From NCBI GenBank assembly GCA_017434825.1, contig JAFSGC010000016.1, positions 1 to 64,000 on the forward strand: a stretch of DNA of 64,000 nt, written 5' to 3'. Below, piece by piece: positions 18,407-47,120 of this stretch; the first letter of the stretch is position 1, and each line of letters starts with the position of its first letter. Made by a program: the position numbers and the translations under genes. This DNA comes from Bacilli bacterium. Its GTDB lineage: Bacteria > Bacillota_I > Bacilli_A > RF39 > UBA660. The notes beneath the pieces are model-generated. The model was not told where the DNA came from and did no database searches. It saw nothing but the letters and a program-made list of their open reading frames with translations.

Positions 18407-18436
18407 TTGACTATAATTGAATGCATATGCTATAAT
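18407..18436 (+). promoter_or_regulatory. Promoter of His-leader attenuator operon
   Basis: TTGACT (18407-18412) and TATAAT (18431-18436) have an 18-base spacer, with TGC directly before the -10 (extended). The predicted start is near 18443, about 20 bases before the leader-peptide ATG. Confidence 0.7.
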
Positions 18437-18463: not shown

Positions 18464-18526
18464 ATGTTTAGAAATTTAGTTGCAAGACATCATCATAATA
18501 ATTGGCGCTTGTTAATACGACATTAA
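18464..18526 (+). CDS. 20-residue His-rich leader peptide
   Basis: A short reading frame: MFRNLVAR, then HHH (codons 9-11, all CAT), then NNWRLLIRH and TAA. GGAAG lies 8 bases before the ATG, and a good promoter lies just upstream. Four of 20 codons are His. Position, size and the downstream alternating hairpins match the leader peptide of a ribosome-mediated attenuator, as in the enterobacterial his operon. The peptide itself probably has no other role. Stalling at the CAT codons would report uncharged tRNA-His. Confidence 0.75.
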   Translation: MFRNLVARHHHNNWRLLIRH

Positions 18527-18627
18527 AATTGTTGTAGATACAAGTGCTATTTGTGGTGCTTGTATCTAGTAAATTTAAATATATATTAAAAATGCTATAC
18601 AAGTACTACTTGTGTAGCATTTTTTTA
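18482..18627 (+). promoter_or_regulatory. Six-segment transcription attenuator (his-type architecture)
   Basis: Six alternately complementary segments: A GCAAG (18482-18486), B CTTGT (18508-18512), C TAGATACAAG (18535-18544), D CTTGTATCTA (18559-18568), E AATGCTATACAAG (18591-18603) and F CTTGTGTAGCATT (18609-18621), then T to 18626. C:D is a perfect 10-bp stem; E:F is a 13-bp terminator with one G-U pair. B:C (5 bp) and D:E (7 bp, CTTGTAT with ATACAAG) are the alternatives. A ribosome halted at the His codons covers A, which frees B for C and D for E and prevents the terminator. A ribosome that reaches the stop codon covers B and restores C:D and E:F. Confidence 0.75.
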
Positions 18628-18656: not shown

Positions 18657-18902
18657 ATGGAAAAAATAAAAAATGGAATAGTATTTAGTGATGATATAAA
18701 AAGGATTTTTAGTGGTGTAAATGCATTTGATTATAGTTATGCATGTAAGCCCAATGATAGTGTGATAGAGGATGTAAGAAAAGATTTTAAGTTAGATGCT
18801 GATAAAATCTTTAATGGTAATGTTACAATTATTTCCGAAGATGAAATGATGGGCGTTAATAACTTAATTGGTGGTGAATATCCCCATCGTAACTTTAGAT
18901 AA
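18657..18902 (+). CDS. Phosphoribosyltransferase-like protein, N-terminal part (zero frame)
   Basis: This frame encodes 81 residues, of which the first 76 (to GGEYP) join logically to the +1 frame that follows; the last five (HRNFR) are then out of register. AGGAGA precedes the ATG. The shift point is CCC CAT at 18882-18887: re-pairing of tRNA-Pro one base forward on CCC (18883-18885) puts the ribosome into the downstream frame, giving a 294-residue protein. Either this is a programmed +1 frameshift, or the gene is broken, or the fourth C is a sequence error. The first reading is favoured by the His A-site codon and the His leader, but it is unproven. Confidence 0.6.
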   Translation: MEKIKNGIVFSDDIKRIFSGVNAFDYSYACKPNDSVIEDVRKDFKLDADKIFNGNVTIISEDEMMGVNNLIGGEYPHRNFR

Positions 18903-19542
18903 AATATATGTAAAACCTGACGAAAAAAATATCTTTTTCTTAGATTGTACAAGAGTATCTGGAAGTAATAAGATAATCTCTCGTAAAAAAGAAAGTTTAA
19001 ATATGCAAATTATTCGAGTTTCTAATTCGTTAAACGGGAACGAAATAATTCTTGCTGACGACGTGGTTTTTTCAGGTAATGTCTTAAAAAATATAATAAA
19101 TAGATTCAGCATTCGCGGAATAACTGTTGTTGGTATTATTTCTTCAATTTGTTCATCTGAAGCATATGAATATTTTAATCGAAATTTAAAATATGGCTTA
19201 AGAACAAAGTTTATAATGTCCGAAGATGTAATTGACCAAATTTGTGAACGAGATTTTTACTTTGGCGTTGCAGGTTCGGGAATCATGATTAATAGTGAAG
19301 AGGGATTATGTAAAGCTCCATATTTTAAACCATATGGAGATTCATGTGAAAGAGCATCTATTCCTAAAGAATATGAAAATTATTTTTCAACAGGGTGCTT
19401 AGAAAGAAGTCTATATTTATGGGATGATGTTGATAACACCAGAGGAAGTTCCACAAAAATTAGTGAACTACCAGAAAGAATAATAAATACAAAAAGTGAA
19501 GATGAAGTAGTAAAAACATTAAGAAGGGAGTTAAGAAGATAA
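18868..19542 (+). CDS. Phosphoribosyltransferase-like protein, main part (+1 frame)
   Basis: Carries a type I phosphoribosyltransferase PRPP-binding motif, EIILADDVVFSGNVLKNI, with the paired Asp at about residues 134-135 of the joined protein. It continues to a conserved-looking C-terminal part (GVAGSGIMINSEEG, APYFKPYGDSCERASIP, CLERSLYLW). The base acceptor cannot be told. This frame has no convincing start of its own: TTG 18868 and GTG 18871/18874 lack a good Shine-Dalgarno site. Translation therefore most likely enters from the upstream frame at CCC-CAT. The stop overlaps the SLOG gene start (TAATG). Confidence 0.7.
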   Translation: MVVNIPIVTLDKIYVKPDEKNIFFLDCTRVSGSNKIISRKKESLNMQIIRVSNSLNGNEIILADDVVFSGNVLKNIINRFSIRGITVVGIISSICSSEAYEYFNRNLKYGLRTKFIMSEDVIDQICERDFYFGVAGSGIMINSEEGLCKAPYFKPYGDSCERASIPKEYENYFSTGCLERSLYLWDDVDNTRGSSTKISELPERIINTKSEDEVVKTLRRELRR

Positions 19543-20075
19543 TGAAAAAACTACAAATAGGAGTAATGGGGTCTGCTGCAGACTTAAACTTTAGTGATGA
19601 AGCTTTAAATTTTGCGAAAGAAATTGGAAAGTGTATAGCAAAATCAGAAAATATTTTAGTGTATGGGGCTGAGAAAGAGTATACTTCGCTGTCAACGGAA
19701 GCTGCTAAAGTAGCTTCTAAAAATGGAGGTATTACAGTAGGCGTTGCTGGAGGAAAAGATAAGAAAATATATGGGAAATATCGTCCTACTATCTTAATAA
19801 ATTCAGGATTAGAAATAGGTGGAGGAAGAGAATTTAACTTAGTACTTTCTTGTGATGTGATTATTGCGATATCTGGAGGTAGTGGCACATTAACAGAAAT
19901 GGCAATTGCTTATCAAGCAGGAATTCCAATTGTGGTAATTGATAAATTTGGCGGTTGGGCAAATAAACTATCAAATGAATACATAGATGATCGAAAAAGA
20001 TTAAAATGTATAAGTGCAAACACTCCACAAGAAGCAGTTAATAAAGCAATTGAATTAGCAAATCAAAAAAAATAA
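19542..20075 (+). CDS. SLOG/LOG-like (TIGR00725-type) nucleotide-binding protein
   Basis: A Rossmann-like protein of 177 residues with the SLOG superfamily hallmarks: IGVMGSAAD at the start, a GGGREFNLVLSCDVIIAISGGSGTLTEMAIAYQAG core, in which GGxGTxxE binds a nucleotide phosphate, and PIVVID. Relatives include LOG phosphoribohydrolases, which cut ribose-5-phosphate from nucleotide monophosphates. Coupling by overlap to a PRPP-type transferase suggests that the two act on the same nucleotide. That link is inference. Confidence 0.8.
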   Translation: MKKLQIGVMGSAADLNFSDEALNFAKEIGKCIAKSENILVYGAEKEYTSLSTEAAKVASKNGGITVGVAGGKDKKIYGKYRPTILINSGLEIGGGREFNLVLSCDVIIAISGGSGTLTEMAIAYQAGIPIVVIDKFGGWANKLSNEYIDDRKRLKCISANTPQEAVNKAIELANQKK

Positions 20076-20082
20076 AATATTA

Positions 20083-20091
20083 TGCTATAAT
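20083..20091 (+). promoter_or_regulatory. Extended -10 promoter of ABC-F gene
   Basis: TGCTATAAT is a perfect extended -10 in the short gap after the SLOG gene. No terminator lies in this gap, so read-through from the attenuator-controlled operon is also expected. Confidence 0.55.
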
Positions 20092-20118
20092 AAACTTTGT
20101 TAGATTGAGGTTTATACT

Positions 20119-21990
20119 ATGGAATATAAAATAATAAATGGAGCAATATCCTTTGGAACTAATACGATAATTGAAGAAATAAATTTTGAAATTAAAAATA
20201 ATGATAAAATTGCAATTGTTGGTCGAAATGGTAGTGGAAAAACATCTTTGTTAAAAGCGATAGTAGATAATGAAATGCTAGAAACTGGTCTTGGAGAGGA
20301 AAACCTTTCTGTTATCAAAATTGGTAGCCCAACGATAGGGTATCAAACTCAGCATGCATTTTCAGATTTAACTGCCACTTTGGAAGAAGAAATTCTAAAA
20401 GTTTATAAACCAATCACTGATTTAAAAAAGAAAATTGAAAAATTAGAAAAGACCTTAACAATAGATACTTCGGACAAAGTTCTTAATGAGTATACAGATA
20501 GCTTAGATAAATTTAAACTTATCGGCGGTTATACTTATCAAAAAGAATATGAGTTGGCCCTTATGAAGTTTGGATTTACCAAAGAAGATAAATGTAAAAA
20601 ATTATCAGAATTTTCCGGAGGTCAAAGAACCAAAATATCATTTTTAAAACTGATTCTAAGTAAGCCAGATATTTTACTTTTAGATGAACCTACAAATCAT
20701 TTAGATATGCATACAGTAGAGTGGCTTGAAGAATATTTAAGTGATTATCCAAAATCTTTAGTGGTGGTATCTCATGACCGAATGTTCTTAGATAAAGTAG
20801 TAAATAAAATCTATGAGATAGAGTATGCATCTCTTACAAAATATAAAGGTAGTTATACTTCGTACGAAAAGCAAAAGAAGATGAATTTTGAAAAACAATT
20901 AAAAGACTATGAATATCAGCAAAAAGAAATAAAAAGATTAAAAGATATAGCAGAAAGATTTAAATATAAACCTAGTAAAGCCTCAATGGCAATGTCTAAA
21001 TTAAGAAAAATAGAACAAATGCAAATTGTGGATAAACCACAGAAAAGTGATACAAAAACTTTTAATTCAAAGATTAAAGTTAATAGCGAAAGTGGTAATA
21101 CAGTTTTAACGGTAAGAGATTTAGAAATTGGATATGATAGCGTATTATCAAAGGTGTCTTTTGAACTTTTTAAAGGACAAAAAATAGCAATCATCGGAGA
21201 AAATGGTAAGGGTAAATCAACTTTAATAAAAACTCTAATGGGAATAATCCCTAAAATAAGTGGTAAGTTTACTTATGGCTATAATGTTCAAAAAGAATAC
21301 TTTGATCAGCAAATAGAATTTATTAATGAAGAAAATACTATTTATGAAGAATATGAACAAACTTTTCCTGGAACTGAATCGGTACAAATTAGAAAAAATC
21401 TTGGTGCCTTTCTATTTACGGGGGAAGATGTATTTAAAAAGATAAACACTCTTTCTGGAGGAGAAAAAGTAAGACTAGGTTTATGTAAGATACTACGTAA
21501 AGAACCAAACCTATTACTTTTAGATGAACCAACGAATCATTTAGATATTTTAGGAAAAGAGAACTTGGAAGAAATATTAAATAATTACGATGGCAGTGTA
21601 TTGCTTGTTTCTCATGATCGTTATTTTATAAATAGGGTTGCTGATTCGCTTTTAATATTCGAAGAAGATAAAGTAATATATTTTAATGGTAAATACCAAG
21701 AATATATTGATAAGAAAAGTAAAGAGGTTCATGTTATAGAGAAAAAGGAAACTATTAAAAAGAAAAAACAACCACAAGAACAAAGAAATATTAAAGCTCA
21801 AATAAGAAGTGTTGAGAAAGAAATCAATAAGATAGAAGAAAAAATAACAGAAATAAAAAATATGATGCTTGATGAAAAAATATATTCAGACTATCTTAAA
21901 ATGAATGAACTTCAAGACCAAATAAAATTATTTGAATATGAGCTTGAAAATAAAATGGTAGAGTGGGAAAAATTAAGTGATGATTTATAG
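20119..21990 (+). CDS. ABC-F family ATPase
   Basis: A soluble protein of 623 residues with two ABC domains and no membrane segment, of the ribosome-associated ABC-F group. Domain 1 has Walker A GRNGSGKT (about residue 35), signature FSGGQ and Walker B LLLDEPTNHLD. The linker carries the paired helices expected for reaching the tRNA E/P site. Domain 2 has GENGKGKS, LSGGEK and LLLDEPTNHLD. A coiled-coil C-terminal tail of about 80 residues resembles Uup/YdiF. Housekeeping translation roles and antibiotic protection are both found in this family. GAGG precedes the ATG. Confidence 0.92.
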   Translation: MEYKIINGAISFGTNTIIEEINFEIKNNDKIAIVGRNGSGKTSLLKAIVDNEMLETGLGEENLSVIKIGSPTIGYQTQHAFSDLTATLEEEILKVYKPITDLKKKIEKLEKTLTIDTSDKVLNEYTDSLDKFKLIGGYTYQKEYELALMKFGFTKEDKCKKLSEFSGGQRTKISFLKLILSKPDILLLDEPTNHLDMHTVEWLEEYLSDYPKSLVVVSHDRMFLDKVVNKIYEIEYASLTKYKGSYTSYEKQKKMNFEKQLKDYEYQQKEIKRLKDIAERFKYKPSKASMAMSKLRKIEQMQIVDKPQKSDTKTFNSKIKVNSESGNTVLTVRDLEIGYDSVLSKVSFELFKGQKIAIIGENGKGKSTLIKTLMGIIPKISGKFTYGYNVQKEYFDQQIEFINEENTIYEEYEQTFPGTESVQIRKNLGAFLFTGEDVFKKINTLSGGEKVRLGLCKILRKEPNLLLLDEPTNHLDILGKENLEEILNNYDGSVLLVSHDRYFINRVADSLLIFEEDKVIYFNGKYQEYIDKKSKEVHVIEKKETIKKKKQPQEQRNIKAQIRSVEKEINKIEEKITEIKNMMLDEKIYSDYLKMNELQDQIKLFEYELENKMVEWEKLSDDL

Positions 21991-21999
21991 GAGAAATAA

Positions 22000-22671
22000 A
22001 TGAAAAATATAGATGAAACAGTAAAATCAAGACATTCAGTTCGAAGATATAAGGAAGATGCAATTCCTAAAAAATTAGTAGATAATTTAAATAAGATTAT
22101 TGATAATTATAATAAGGAATCTGGATTAAACATTCAGTTAAAGACTGAGGATAAAGATACATTTGCAAGTTACAAACTACATTATGGAAAGATATATGAT
22201 TGTGCAAATTATATTGCATTAATTGGTAATAAAAAAGAAAAGCATCTTGAAGAAATAGTTGGTTATTATGGCCAAAAAATAGTTTTAGAGGCTCAAGAAA
22301 TGGGTTTAAATACTTGTTGGGTAGGAGCAGGATATAGTAAAAGTGCTTTAAATGTAAAAGTGCTTCCGGGGCAAAAAATAGTCTGTGTGATTGCTATTGG
22401 ATATGGACTTCATAATGGTAAACCAAGACCTAGCAAAACATATGATGATGTATCGGTTACTAAAGATGCTCCAGATTGGTACAAAAAAGGCATTGAATAT
22501 GCATTACTTGCTCCGACCGCAATTAATCAACAAAAATTTAAGTTTGAGTTATTAGAAAATAATATTGTATCTGTAAAAGCAGGTATTGGACCTTTTTCAA
22601 AAGTTGATTTAGGTATTGTAAAATATCATTTTGAACTTGGAGCTGGAACTTCAAACTTTACATGGAAATAA
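22000..22671 (+). CDS. Nitroreductase-family protein
   Basis: A flavin-type nitroreductase fold of 223 residues. The N-terminal SRHSVRRYKEDAIPKKLV binds FMN phosphate in the family, and GQKIVLEAQEMGLNTCWVGAGYSK is the conserved central helix. The substrate is unknown. AGGAG precedes the start. It follows the ABC-F gene by 9 bases and ends the transcription unit. Confidence 0.85.
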   Translation: MKNIDETVKSRHSVRRYKEDAIPKKLVDNLNKIIDNYNKESGLNIQLKTEDKDTFASYKLHYGKIYDCANYIALIGNKKEKHLEEIVGYYGQKIVLEAQEMGLNTCWVGAGYSKSALNVKVLPGQKIVCVIAIGYGLHNGKPRPSKTYDDVSVTKDAPDWYKKGIEYALLAPTAINQQKFKFELLENNIVSVKAGIGPFSKVDLGIVKYHFELGAGTSNFTWK

Positions 22672-43774: not shown

Positions 43775-44003
43775 AATCTTTTAAAGATTATGAACAAGAC
43801 GAAACTATTAGGAAGTTTTGAAAGAGAGCCAAGTAAGGTGAAAGTTGGCAAATGAAATAGTAGTTTGGATCACTTGGGAATTGCTTATTTGAATAAAATA
43901 GAATAGGACGAATAACTCGCGTTAAGAGGTTAAAGTGTATGACAAGTTCATAAACTAAGGTGGTACCACGGATAATGTCCGCCCTTAGATTTATGGACTT
44001 TTT
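43775..44003 (+). promoter_or_regulatory. T-box leader, isoleucine specific
   Basis: The conserved T-box AAGGTGGTACCACGG lies at 43957-43971, with TGGT as the bulge that pairs with the uncharged tRNA end. The specifier codon reads ATC (43869-43871), within GGATCACTTGGG, matching tRNA-Ile. The competing terminator pairs AAGT, CATAAA and TAAGG with CCTTA, TTTATG and ACTT, followed by a T-run. Uncharged tRNA-Ile should stabilise the antiterminator and switch on ileS. Confidence 0.95.
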
Positions 44004-44024
44004 TTATTTTAAGGAGGAGAAAGA

Positions 44025-47000
44025 ATGAAAAATTTTAAGGAATTAGACAAAAGACCCGTAAGTGAGGTCGAAACATCGATTTCTGAATCATGGAAAAGTA
44101 TCAATGCAATGCACGATGCTCAAAATAAGAAAAATGAAAATAATGAAACTTTCGTTTTCTATGATGGCCCGGCATTTGCTAATGGGTTTCCAGGATTACA
44201 CCATATGGTATCAAAAAATCTTAAAGACTGTGTTACAAAGTATCATGTAATGAACGGTAAGAAGGTTATAAGAAAGATTGGATGGGATACTCATGGTCTT
44301 CCGATTGAAAACCATGTAGAAAAGAAATTGGGAATTTCATCTAAGAAAGAAATCGAAGCTTTAGGTATTGAAAAATTTAATGAAGAATGTCGTAAGAGTG
44401 TTAGAGCTAATGAAGATGCATTTACAAATTTAACTTCAAAAATGGGACAATTCTTTGATGTAGAAAATCCATATTTAACATATAAAAATGATTATATTGA
44501 AACTGAATGGTGGATTTTAAAAGAAATGTTTGAAAAAGATATGTTCTATGAAGGAACTAGAGTAGTACCATACTGTCCTCATTGTGGAACAGGATTAGCT
44601 ACTCACGAAGTTGCTCAAAACTATCAAACTGATACTGCAATTACAGTATATGTACCATTTAAGAAAAAAGATGAAAATGTATATTTCTTAGTTTGGACAA
44701 CAACTCCATGGACGTTAATTGCTAACGTAGCTCTTTGTGTAAATCCAAATGAAGACTATGCATTAGTTGAATCTAAAGGAACTAAGTTTATTTTAGCGTC
44801 TGCATTAGTAGAAAAAGTTTTAGGGGAAGAGGCTACTGTTCTAGAAACCTACAAAGGTAAAGATTTAGAATATCAAGAATATGAACAATTACTTCCATCT
44901 TTCGAAGTAGATAAAAAAGCTTTCTTTGTTACTTGTGATAATTATGTAACTATGGAGGATGGAACTGGTATCGTACATATTGCACCAGCCTTTGGTGAAG
45001 ATGATGCTAATATTGGTAAAAATTATGATTTACCATATTTAAATCCAGTAGGAAAAGATGGTTGCTATACCGCTGGACTTTGGGAAGGTAAATTTGTTCA
45101 TGATGTAAATGAAGAAATTGTAACTTACTTAAAAGAAAATGATAAATTATTTAAAAAACAAAAACTAGCTCATGAATATCCTCATTGTTGGAGATGTGAT
45201 ACAGCATTAATTTATTATTCAATGCCAAGTTATTACATAAGAGTTAGTCAAATGACTGATGATTTAGTTAAAGCTAATGAAAAAGTAAATTGGTATCCAG
45301 CTTATGTTGGTGAAAAAAGATTTGCTAATTGGCTTGCAAATGCAAGAGACTGGAATGTATCACGTTCTCGTTATTGGGGAAGTCCAATTCCTTACTGGAA
45401 GTGTGAATGCGGTCATGCCCATATGGTAGGATCAATAGAGGAATTAAAGAATTTGGCTATCGAAGAAATTGGCGAAGATTTTGACTTACATAAACCATAT
45501 ATTGATAATGTTCACTTAACTTGTGAAAAATGTGGCAAAAAAATGACTCGTATTCCAGATGTTTTAGACTGTTGGTTTGACTCTGGAGCTATGCCATTTG
45601 CTCAATATCATTATCCATTTGAAAATAAAGAATTATGGGAAGAACAATTTCCTGCAGACTTCATTTGTGAAGGTATTGACCAAACTCGTGGTTGGTTCTA
45701 TACATTAATGGTAATTTCAACTTTTGTTAAAGGTTGTTCACCGTTTAAGAATGTTTTAGTAAATGACTTATTACTTGATGCAAATGGTAAGAAAATGAGT
45801 AAGAGTCGCGGTAATATCGTTGAACCGTTTAGCACAATCGAAGAATATGGTGCTGATACAGTAAGATTCTACTTACCATATGTTTCACCAGTATGGACTC
45901 CGCTTAAATTTGATATGGAAGGATTAAAAGAAGTATATTCTAAATTTTTCAATCCTCTTAAAAATACTTATAGTTTCTTTGCGATGTATGCCAATATTGA
46001 TAAAATAGATACTAACGAATGTAGTGTTCCATATGAAAATCGTGAAGAAATTGATAAATGGTTAATTTCAAAATATAATAAACTAGTTAAAAATGTTCGT
46101 GCTTCATTTGAGGAATATGATTTAAATAAAGTTGTTCATTTCCTAGCATCATTTGTTTCAGAAGATCTATCTAACTGGTATATCAGAAGAAATAGAAATA
46201 GATTCTGGGGAAGTGAATTAGATTCATCTAAGAAAAGTGTATATATAACTACATACGAAGTATTAGTTGGTTTATCTAAATTAATTGCTCCAGTGGTACC
46301 ATTTGTTTCAGAAGAATTATATCGCAATTTGACTGGAGAAGAATCAGTTCATTTAGCAGATTATCCATCATATGATGAAAATTTAATTAATGAACATATA
46401 GAAGAAAGAATGGACTTAGTAAGAAACTTAATTTCTATTGGACGTTACGTACGTGAAGAAAATAAGATAAAAGTTCGTCAACCACTTCCAGAAGCTTTAG
46501 TAGATGGTAAAAATAAAGAACTTCTTAATGATTTAACTAATTTAGTTATGGAAGAATTAAATGTTAAGAAAGTAACTTTTGCAGAAGATTTAAATACCTA
46601 TATGACATTTACAATTAAACCTAATTTTAAAGAAGTAGGTAAAGTATTTGGTAAAAATATGGGTGAATATCAAAAGAAATTATTAGAATTATCTCCAGAA
46701 GAAATCTCTTTACTTCAAAATGGAGAAAACATTAAGATGAATGTTGCGGATACTGAATATGATATTACACCAGATATGGTTGAAATTAGATATAATGCAA
46801 AAGAAGGATTTAATGTTGGTATGGAAAATGGCGCATTTATAATCCTTGATACAAGAATTACTGAAGAACTTAAAATGGAAGGTAATGCTCGTGAGTTTGT
46901 ATCAAAAGTTCAACAATTACGTAAAGATAATGGTTTTGACATCGCTGATCGTATAGTAACGACATATAATGCAGATGAAGAATTTGCAAAAGCAATCGAA

Positions 47001-47120
47001 GCTAATATCGATTATGTAAAAAATGAAACATTAACAGTTGAGTTAATAAAAGATGAAAGTCTTGAAAAAAACCTAACTTTAAATGATTACAGCGTAGGTA
47101 TTAAATTAGAAAGAAAATAG
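44025..47120 (+). CDS. ileS: Isoleucyl-tRNA synthetase, type 2, with GLHH signature
   Basis: Charges tRNA-Ile and edits valine. Length (1031) and sequence (KKVIRKIGWDTHGLPIE, TWWENxF-free long middle, DSGAMPFAQYHYPFEN) fit the eukaryote-like IleRS2 class. The class I signature after FANGFP reads GLHH instead of HxGH, with the His and Gly positions exchanged. KMSKS is intact (GKKMSKSRGN), and CP1 editing-domain residues (WTTTPWTL) are present. IleRS2 is naturally mupirocin tolerant, and GXHH variants have been reported as extremely resistant. AAGGAGG precedes the ATG; control is by the T-box. Confidence 0.96.
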   Translation: MKNFKELDKRPVSEVETSISESWKSINAMHDAQNKKNENNETFVFYDGPAFANGFPGLHHMVSKNLKDCVTKYHVMNGKKVIRKIGWDTHGLPIENHVEKKLGISSKKEIEALGIEKFNEECRKSVRANEDAFTNLTSKMGQFFDVENPYLTYKNDYIETEWWILKEMFEKDMFYEGTRVVPYCPHCGTGLATHEVAQNYQTDTAITVYVPFKKKDENVYFLVWTTTPWTLIANVALCVNPNEDYALVESKGTKFILASALVEKVLGEEATVLETYKGKDLEYQEYEQLLPSFEVDKKAFFVTCDNYVTMEDGTGIVHIAPAFGEDDANIGKNYDLPYLNPVGKDGCYTAGLWEGKFVHDVNEEIVTYLKENDKLFKKQKLAHEYPHCWRCDTALIYYSMPSYYIRVSQMTDDLVKANEKVNWYPAYVGEKRFANWLANARDWNVSRSRYWGSPIPYWKCECGHAHMVGSIEELKNLAIEEIGEDFDLHKPYIDNVHLTCEKCGKKMTRIPDVLDCWFDSGAMPFAQYHYPFENKELWEEQFPADFICEGIDQTRGWFYTLMVISTFVKGCSPFKNVLVNDLLLDANGKKMSKSRGNIVEPFSTIEEYGADTVRFYLPYVSPVWTPLKFDMEGLKEVYSKFFNPLKNTYSFFAMYANIDKIDTNECSVPYENREEIDKWLISKYNKLVKNVRASFEEYDLNKVVHFLASFVSEDLSNWYIRRNRNRFWGSELDSSKKSVYITTYEVLVGLSKLIAPVVPFVSEELYRNLTGEESVHLADYPSYDENLINEHIEERMDLVRNLISIGRYVREENKIKVRQPLPEALVDGKNKELLNDLTNLVMEELNVKKVTFAEDLNTYMTFTIKPNFKEVGKVFGKNMGEYQKKLLELSPEEISLLQNGENIKMNVADTEYDITPDMVEIRYNAKEGFNVGMENGAFIILDTRITEELKMEGNAREFVSKVQQLRKDNGFDIADRIVTTYNADEEFAKAIEANIDYVKNETLTVELIKDESLEKNLTLNDYSVGIKLERK

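Follow-up and report, generated by a model that had tools for sequence, protein, structure and literature searches.

A conserved histidine codon at a +1 frame change behind a histidine attenuator: a candidate for hungry-codon frameshifting in uncultured Bacilli

Introduction

Why would an enzyme gene be split between two reading frames at a histidine codon, when the leader in front of it is itself built around histidine codons? The question is raised by a phosphoribosyltransferase-like (PRTase) gene, followed by a SLOG-family gene, in a stretch of 64,000 nucleotides (the window: positions 1 to 64,000 of contig JAFSGC010000016.1, assembly GCA_017434825.1) from the 1.07-Mb draft genome of a Bacilli bacterium. 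We propose that PRTase-SLOG output is probably gated twice by charged tRNA-His, once by attenuation and again by +1 frameshifting at a hungry codon, a proposal reached by comparing related sequences. The relatives, numbered with G for genomes and L for loci, are metagenome-assembled Bacilli from samples labelled 'Lapin' (taken as rabbit), sheep rumen, sheep ileum and others.

A conserved +1 frame change in the PRTase gene

The first-pass annotation of the window had described a 294-residue fusion. A product of that length can indeed be obtained, by way of a frame shift; the gene itself occupies two frames, not one open frame:

18657-18902, + strand: first open reading frame (ORF1), PRTase residues 1-76 in the 0 frame, stop TAA at 18900-18902
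18868-19542, + strand: second open reading frame (ORF2), the rest of the PRTase in the +1 frame, overlapping ORF1 by 35 bases
18657-19542, + strand: full PRTase of 294 residues by a +1 shift (18657-18884, then 18886-19542), with no histidine
18882-18887, + strand: +1 shift site in the context TAT CCC CAT, with slippery CCC-C and the His codon CAT in the A site
18870-18877, + strand: Shine-Dalgarno (SD)-like GGTGGTGA, 4 nt before the slippery codon, anti-SD duplex of -10.3 against a background mean of -2.8 kcal/mol

Split PRTases were found by a search of the taxonomic order (G281, G158 and G195) and by a scan of named genomes that yielded ten loci, those three included. Together with the window and five loci reached through the leader described below, these make 16 split homologues, whose proteins are 45-97% identical pairwise (median 55%). 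In the window and the ten named loci ORF1 always ends ...CCC CAT NNN NNN NNN NGA TAA, with the remainder of the PRTase in the +1 frame (11/11); of the five leader-found loci, four reach the 0-frame stop 6 codons on, and L088 reaches it 12 codons on. The pair CCC CAT stands at the same place in all 16.

The choice of bases at this site departs from the habits of these genes. Over the window and the ten named loci, 79 of 1,808 proline codons (4.4%) are CCC, and among four invariant proline columns only the one at the shift site is always CCC, the other three being mainly CCA or CCT. The base ahead of the +1-frame CCC is C in 16/16 homologues, though C makes up 5.7% of third positions. The +1-frame isoleucine that follows is encoded by ATT in 13, ATC in 3 and ATA in none, whereas ATA occurs often at the majority of the other invariant isoleucine positions.

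An SD-like stretch accompanies the site. Anti-SD pairing in the 15 bases ahead of CCC averages -9.0 kcal/mol over the 16 sites, compared with -2.5 kcal/mol elsewhere in the same genes (the anti-SD tail used for these energies being our assumption), and 15 of the 16 sites reach -6.8 kcal/mol or stronger; the region in L107, for example, reads AGG AGG TAT CCC CAT. Not one of 20,000 resampled sets attains the observed mean, a count that is not a strict probability because the sites are related by descent. Could the stretch simply serve initiation of ORF2? Start candidates in the +1 frame average -2.2 for their best SD, compared with -7.8 at the starts of ORF1 and -8.4 at those of SLOG, and in three of the 16 loci there is no candidate at all in or near the overlap. 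As read from these sequences, therefore, the stretch is not serving a start codon, L027 excepted.

A natural control is provided by an unsplit homologue. A profile search of 348 family genomes returned eight clear PRTases, a remnant in G025 and, in four genomes, weak matches only. Seven of the eight are split; the eighth, in G905, is one continuous frame of 305 residues, colinear with the others through the junction. There the sequence is TAT CCA ATT ATT, with the common proline codon CCA and without the extra C, and the SD-like pairing is gone (-3.3 kcal/mol), while SLOG and a His leader (MLKQINRQHHHNNLHL, read by eye) are retained. Since G905 has a continuous gene that lacks both the extra C and the SD-like signal, the predicted functional PRTase is the fused protein, and the shift signals go with the split. 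Taken as a whole, the comparison makes it very probable that the frame change is programmed.

A histidine leader and attenuator

The first-pass annotation had invoked His-type control of the locus, and the evidence for this is strong. Two tRNA genes lie upstream of a promoter-like site, which is followed by the leader, a terminator and the PRTase:

18407-18436, + strand: promoter-like site TTGACT-18-TATAAT with TG ahead, 11 of 12 consensus positions matched (a consensus match only)
18464-18526, + strand: leader peptide MFRNLVARHHHNNWRLLIRH, 20 codons, with His codons at 18488-18496 and 18521-18523
18505-18522, + strand: attenuator segment B (GCGCTTG..TACGACA), within the leader ORF; pairs with C in 11/11 folds when B is free
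18530-18568, + strand: attenuator segments C and D (GATACAAGTGC...GTGCTTGTATC), a hairpin once the ribosome reaches the leader stop, 11/11 folds
18588-18627, + strand: intrinsic terminator, segments E and F followed by a T run; hairpin in 11/11 'after stop' folds

Three of the His codons in the window's leader are consecutive. An equivalent leader with an attenuator precedes all 17 PRTase loci, and in 11/11 loci there is an SD and a peptide with 4-6 histidines that ends in LLIRH. Folding of 11 sequences in the 'after stop' state gave C:D together with the terminator in every case, and folding with B free gave B:C in every case. Among 37 distinct leaders, nine pairs in the B:C and terminator helices show compensatory types, 96.9% of the cells being paired, and the minimum free energy of the terminator region is below -8 kcal/mol in all 37. 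No Rfam family matched the leader at its gathering threshold, sub-threshold matches lying far under the cut-offs. Judged by its sequence, the leader is a new family in uncultured Bacilli.

Products almost free of histidine

The proteins made from this message appear to share a peculiar composition. The fused PRTase has no histidine in 15/16 split loci or in G905 (16/17 altogether), and 14 of 15 SLOGs lack it as well (five of the 15 being cut by the locus end, and L021, which has an in-frame stop, being left out). Given a background frequency of 1.51%, a PRTase-SLOG pair should contain about 6.9 histidines, and the probability of finding none is 0.001 per locus; kinship of the loci lowers the joint weight of these counts, and histidine is likewise lacking in 3 of 25 background proteins 260-340 residues long. 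Apart from the CAT at the shift site, which the shift bypasses, the window's PRTase-SLOG message has no histidine codon at all.

Other genes behind the same leader follow suit. A second histidyl-tRNA synthetase (HisRS2) lacks histidine in all ten intact leader-controlled copies when read from ATG, as against 2-12 in ten housekeeping HisRS. One of these genes (L135, the same as L084) would gain a single histidine if begun at a GTG upstream, through the leader hairpins. HisG has none (2/2), the M20 peptidase 3, a racemase-like protein 1 and an unnamed protein 0-2. Several of the leader-controlled proteins are apparently shaped, as far as composition tells, to be made when histidine runs out.

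A proposed double gate

How might the two elements work together? In the first gate, completion of the leader peptide would allow the C:D hairpin to form and with it the terminator E:F; a ribosome stalled at the leader His codons would instead permit B:C, so that D pairs with E and transcription continues. In the second gate, a supply of His-tRNA would mean that CAT is read and translation stops a few codons on, yielding a fragment that in the window is 81 residues long. With the A site empty, tRNA-Pro would slip +1 on CCC-C, Ile-tRNA would enter and the full PRTase would be made; the shifted frame would contain no histidine codon, and the histidine-free SLOG would come next. The slip is modelled on known behavior: as Gamper and colleagues showed, tRNA-Pro UGG reads CCC weakly and slips on CCC-C beside an empty A site, and slow P-site shifting beside such a site is considered relevant when starvation depletes aminoacyl-tRNAs (PMC4519876). 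Among the tRNAs listed for the window's genome (at least 30, with none for Cys or Trp), tRNA-Pro UGG is the only one for proline and tRNA-His GUG the only one for histidine, which is the further basis of the proposal. That the frame change responds to tRNA-His is likely in our judgment; we infer this response, as we do the shifting itself.

Several points weigh against the double gate. The tRNA list may be incomplete, and a tRNA-Pro GGG could have been missed. Of the 11 sequences folded with B free, just 5 have the antiterminator D:E in their structure of minimum energy. L024 has almost no SD-like signal (-3.9), L027 alone has a well-spaced SD before a +1-frame GTG, and L089 has one histidine in its PRTase and two in its SLOG. 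The 16 sites share descent, and neither the count of 16/16 nor the resampling figure represents independent trials. Finally, CAT follows in part from CCCC and the conserved +1-frame isoleucine (AT[TC]), so that the His codon could be a by-product.

The alternative that survives best concerns the purpose of the regulon within the double-gate explanation and not the switch as such, and it is weighed below with the genes that bear on it. The next accepts a programmed +1 shift and makes it constitutive: the ratio of short to full product would be fixed, CAT would be incidental, and histidine would be sensed by the attenuator only. The constraint on CAT just described fits this reading, and no starvation is needed for CCC-C to shift when a UGG tRNA and an SD are present (PMC4519876). 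It leaves the coincidence of a His attenuator with His-free products to chance, however, and the isoleucine, hence CAT, is kept in 16/16 (a weak objection, since the unsplit homologue also has it). We regard a constitutive shift as unlikely.

Perhaps, instead, ORF1 and ORF2 encode separate proteins, with ORF2 begun independently or by coupling at a GTG, TTG or ATG in the 35-base overlap. A start candidate does lie in or near the overlap in 13/16 loci, that of L027 having a good SD, but elsewhere the candidates vary in place and codon and lack an SD. Moreover, separate initiation does not explain why CCC-C is conserved, and it sits poorly with the colinear G905 protein. Nucleobase PRTases have roughly 100 or more residues before the motif that binds phosphoribosyl pyrophosphate (PRPP), and ORF2 alone would have just about 60. 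Considering all this, separate initiation is quite improbable. Decay or an assembly error, by which the split would be a mutation or homopolymer artefact, has practically no chance of being right: L093, L097 and L100 are clearly remnants and the L021 SLOG has an in-frame TAA, yet 16 loci, taken from separate assemblies, show the same shift between conserved residues, which already contradicts it.

Relation to known systems

The nearest precedent for the proposed second gate is prfB, whose frameshift cassette has a consensus approaching AGGGGG with a slippery CTTT three nucleotides downstream, and whose shift signals are missing from in-frame homologues (PMC12421855). Both systems have an SD-like stretch just upstream, a slippery codon and, as proposed here for the PRTase, a slow A site, +1 re-pairing and an enzyme made in the downstream frame, and in both the signals are lost where the frame is continuous (here in one homologue, G905). 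They differ in that the A-site codon of the PRTase is the sense codon CAT in 16/16 and not the stop UGA, that the slippery sequence is CCC-C and not CUU-U, and that the signal would be charged tRNA-His, where prfB responds to its own product. With a His codon in place of the A-site stop, the PRTase shift would work like that of prfB without being a member of its class.

Histidine leaders are familiar as well. They are known in Bacillus ahead of hisZ and of the HisRS paralogue hisS* (PMC2965389), and His attenuators have been described in his operons of the B. cereus group, Eubacteriales and Erysipelotrichales (PMC9413887). The leaders studied here resemble these Firmicutes attenuators in their His-codon leader ORF, their antiterminator and terminator, and their control of an extra HisRS. 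Unlike them, they also control PRTase-SLOG, GNAT proteins, peptidases and HisG, with no HisD found, and in the PRTase loci they are coupled to the proposed second, translational gate.

For decades, reporters have been used to study hungry-codon frameshifting. The work of Gallant, and E. coli tRNA-Pro UGG on CCC-C, offers the same P-site slip beside a starved A site, but the known cases are reporters, errors or incidental. The main review of the subject, by Atkins in 2016, considers a starvation-specific trans-frame product conceivable and states that none is known (PMC5009743), and among open-licence papers, as far as their accessible text goes, we found no later one. The words 'phosphoribosyl' and 'histidine' are absent from the main text of a study that surveyed 1,106 prokaryotic genomes for reading-frame transitions (PMC3711429). 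The PRTase locus is a concrete, conserved candidate for such a product; because it comes with a natural in-frame control, it makes the hungry-codon question directly testable. If the proposal is true, one amino acid is sensed at two levels, by an attenuator and, on top of it, by a recoding element. Several nearly histidine-free proteins behind the leader make up an unusually clean case of apparent fit to one missing amino acid.

Genes behind the same leader

The leader motif was searched in 386 family genomes with one mismatch allowed and the reversed pattern as control. It occurs in 32 of the genomes and 24 of 150 genera; the reversed pattern gave no match in the result rows. Two matches, L085 and L095, arose by chance without a His leader and were not counted. 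Some of the genes were named by likeness to others scanned with family models. Thirty true leaders precede PRTase-SLOG (8, the window included) or its remnants (2), HisRS2 as first gene (7) or a fragment of it (1), HisG (2; TIGR00070, 131 and 113 bits, cut-off 75.75), a GNAT protein as first gene (4, with an M20 peptidase alongside in three and a His-racemase-like protein in one), an M20 peptidase as first gene (2), an unnamed protein with an S66 peptidase (3, one then followed by HisRS2) and a contig end (1). The racemase-like protein scored 114 bits with the CntK model, below its cut-off of 300. The L132 S66 peptidase matches MccF-like structures at 1e-67 and MccF at 5e-39.

An unnamed protein of 453-494 residues stands before an S66 MccF-like peptidase in L083, L086 and L132-L134. 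It matched no Pfam or NCBIfam family, and to the eye it looks S51-like.

HisRS2 also lies directly after PRTase-SLOG in three named loci, one copy being broken. A hisS gene scored above the cut-off in all 11 carriers searched, two of which have both a housekeeping and a linked copy; in G804 (L019) the sole full copy found belongs, by eye, to the other kind, which is PRK12420-like. The HisRS2 of L020, L021 and L084 read ARGQNYYTG or ARGQYYYTG, and housekeeping copies mostly VRGLDYY, a region that we take to be the histidine-binding motif. It is possible, from these residues, that the histidine-binding site of HisRS2 is changed.

Remnants and broken genes follow the leaders in L093, L097, L100, L019 and L021, among them HisRS2 fragments, a SLOG C-terminus, a PRTase N-terminus and a SLOG with an in-frame TAA, which suggests that these modules are gained and lost often. 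HisG lies behind the His leader in L103 (1650-2228) and L104 (690-1382, - strand), in genomes where no HisD was found.

Purpose of the regulon

We think that PRTase-SLOG output protects translation when charging of histidyl-tRNA fails, with enzyme roles that are themselves conjectural. What causes the failure? Plain histidine starvation of auxotrophs, in which PRTase-SLOG would serve salvage or brake metabolism, has a little under an even chance of being the answer. HisD was found in none of 21 genomes searched (the control search found it in 13 of 14 known genomes and missed that of B. subtilis), which makes plain starvation possible, and HisG, M20 peptidases and a His-racemase-like gene are among those under the leader. 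Against this, no histidine transporter was recognised by eye behind the leaders, which instead precede a spare HisRS, GNATs and S66 MccF-like peptidases. A uracil-permease-like gene, also identified by eye, lies more than 400 bases beyond one HisRS2.

The set of genes suggests that a HisRS blocked by an inhibitor fits the regulon at least as well as plain starvation does, and perhaps, by analogy with microcin C, the regulon confers immunity to HisRS inhibitors. Microcin C inhibits aspartyl-tRNA synthetase. It is disarmed by GNAT (MccE2), S66 (MccF) and S51 (MccG) enzymes (PMC9239234), and GNAT and S66 MccF-like genes, together with the protein that resembles S51 by eye, are found behind the present leader. 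The likeness stops there: the leader reports tRNA-His and not tRNA-Asp, and PRTase-SLOG has no counterpart among the Mcc enzymes. In an immunity regulon HisRS2 would be the spare target, GNAT and S66/S51-like peptidases would act on the aminoacyl part of the inhibitor, and PRTase-SLOG, as immunity enzymes of a new class, would act on its nucleotide part. The combined proposal, that the His-free regulon is immunity to natural HisRS inhibitors and that it contains the first hungry-sense-codon frameshift to sense tRNA charging, is put forward tentatively, as a possibility on which we would not bet. If the regulon is indeed an immunity set, it would point to undiscovered HisRS-targeting antibiotics in the gut.

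Identity of the proteins and extent of the unit

The window's PRTase scores 20.0 bits with PF00156, below the gathering score of 26.3, though all ten aligned members match that family, the best at 4.3e-7. A structure model of ORF2 alone (pLDDT 62.6) found PRTases as its best Foldseek matches, weakly (E 0.03). With PF00156 below its gathering score and no closely similar solved PRTase, the protein does not look like a known nucleobase salvage enzyme, an identity that would have counted against the first-pass annotation. SLOG scores 101 bits with PF18306 (cut-off 26.3) and 92 with TIGR00725 (below its cut-off of 107); in the comparison with LOG phosphoribohydrolases, A4 carries GGSGTLTE, the LOG motif being GGxGTxxE. 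PADLOC gave no defence family for the PRTase and just a 13-bit STALD match for SLOG, and searches of phages, plasmids and viral contigs with the PRTase found no relative. Distant PRTase-like matches in other families (E about 1e-4 or worse) were too weak to be used.

The remaining genes of the proposed unit are as follows:

19542-20075, + strand: SLOG (LDcluster4 / TIGR00725-like), 177 residues, no histidine
20119-21990, + strand: ABC-F, OptrA-like
22000-22671, + strand: TM1586-type nitroreductase

The first-pass annotation had read PRTase, SLOG, ABC-F and nitroreductase as one transcription unit. The row is present as described, the PRTase stop TAA (19540-19542) overlaps the SLOG start ATG (19542) by one base, and nothing terminator-like occurs on the + strand from 18657 until a site at 22670. 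The association of PRTase with SLOG also holds, the two being adjacent or overlapping in 17/17 PRTase loci; in L107 a few bases separate them. In the view of the first-pass annotation, one of the two enzymes would form and the other cleave an N-glycosidic bond. Conservation does not extend to all four genes. Neither ABC-F nor nitroreductase follows SLOG in any of the nine other named loci with a visible downstream neighbor, where hisS (three, one broken), proS (two), ileS, others or opposite-strand genes are found instead, and the window's two genes have ordinary histidine contents (7/623 and 5/223 residues). The unlinking in relatives that was to count against the unit thus applies to ABC-F and nitroreductase and not to PRTase and SLOG, and we have dropped the former two as members; they are neighbors of PRTase-SLOG, apparently outside its unit. 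The ABC-F scores 454.6 bits with the general ribo_prot_ABC_F model (cut-off 380) and 632 with OptrA, below the cut-off of 1450.

Two further observations concern other loci. In L008 (931-3045, - strand) a 705-residue protein has a PRTase-like part that resembles the C-terminal half of this PRTase, along with nucleotidyltransferase-like and acetyltransferase-like parts recognised by eye, and it adjoins a radical-SAM-like gene. Elsewhere in the window (43781-47120) a T-box leader precedes the isoleucyl-tRNA synthetase gene, so that the usual Firmicutes control is also used in this genome.

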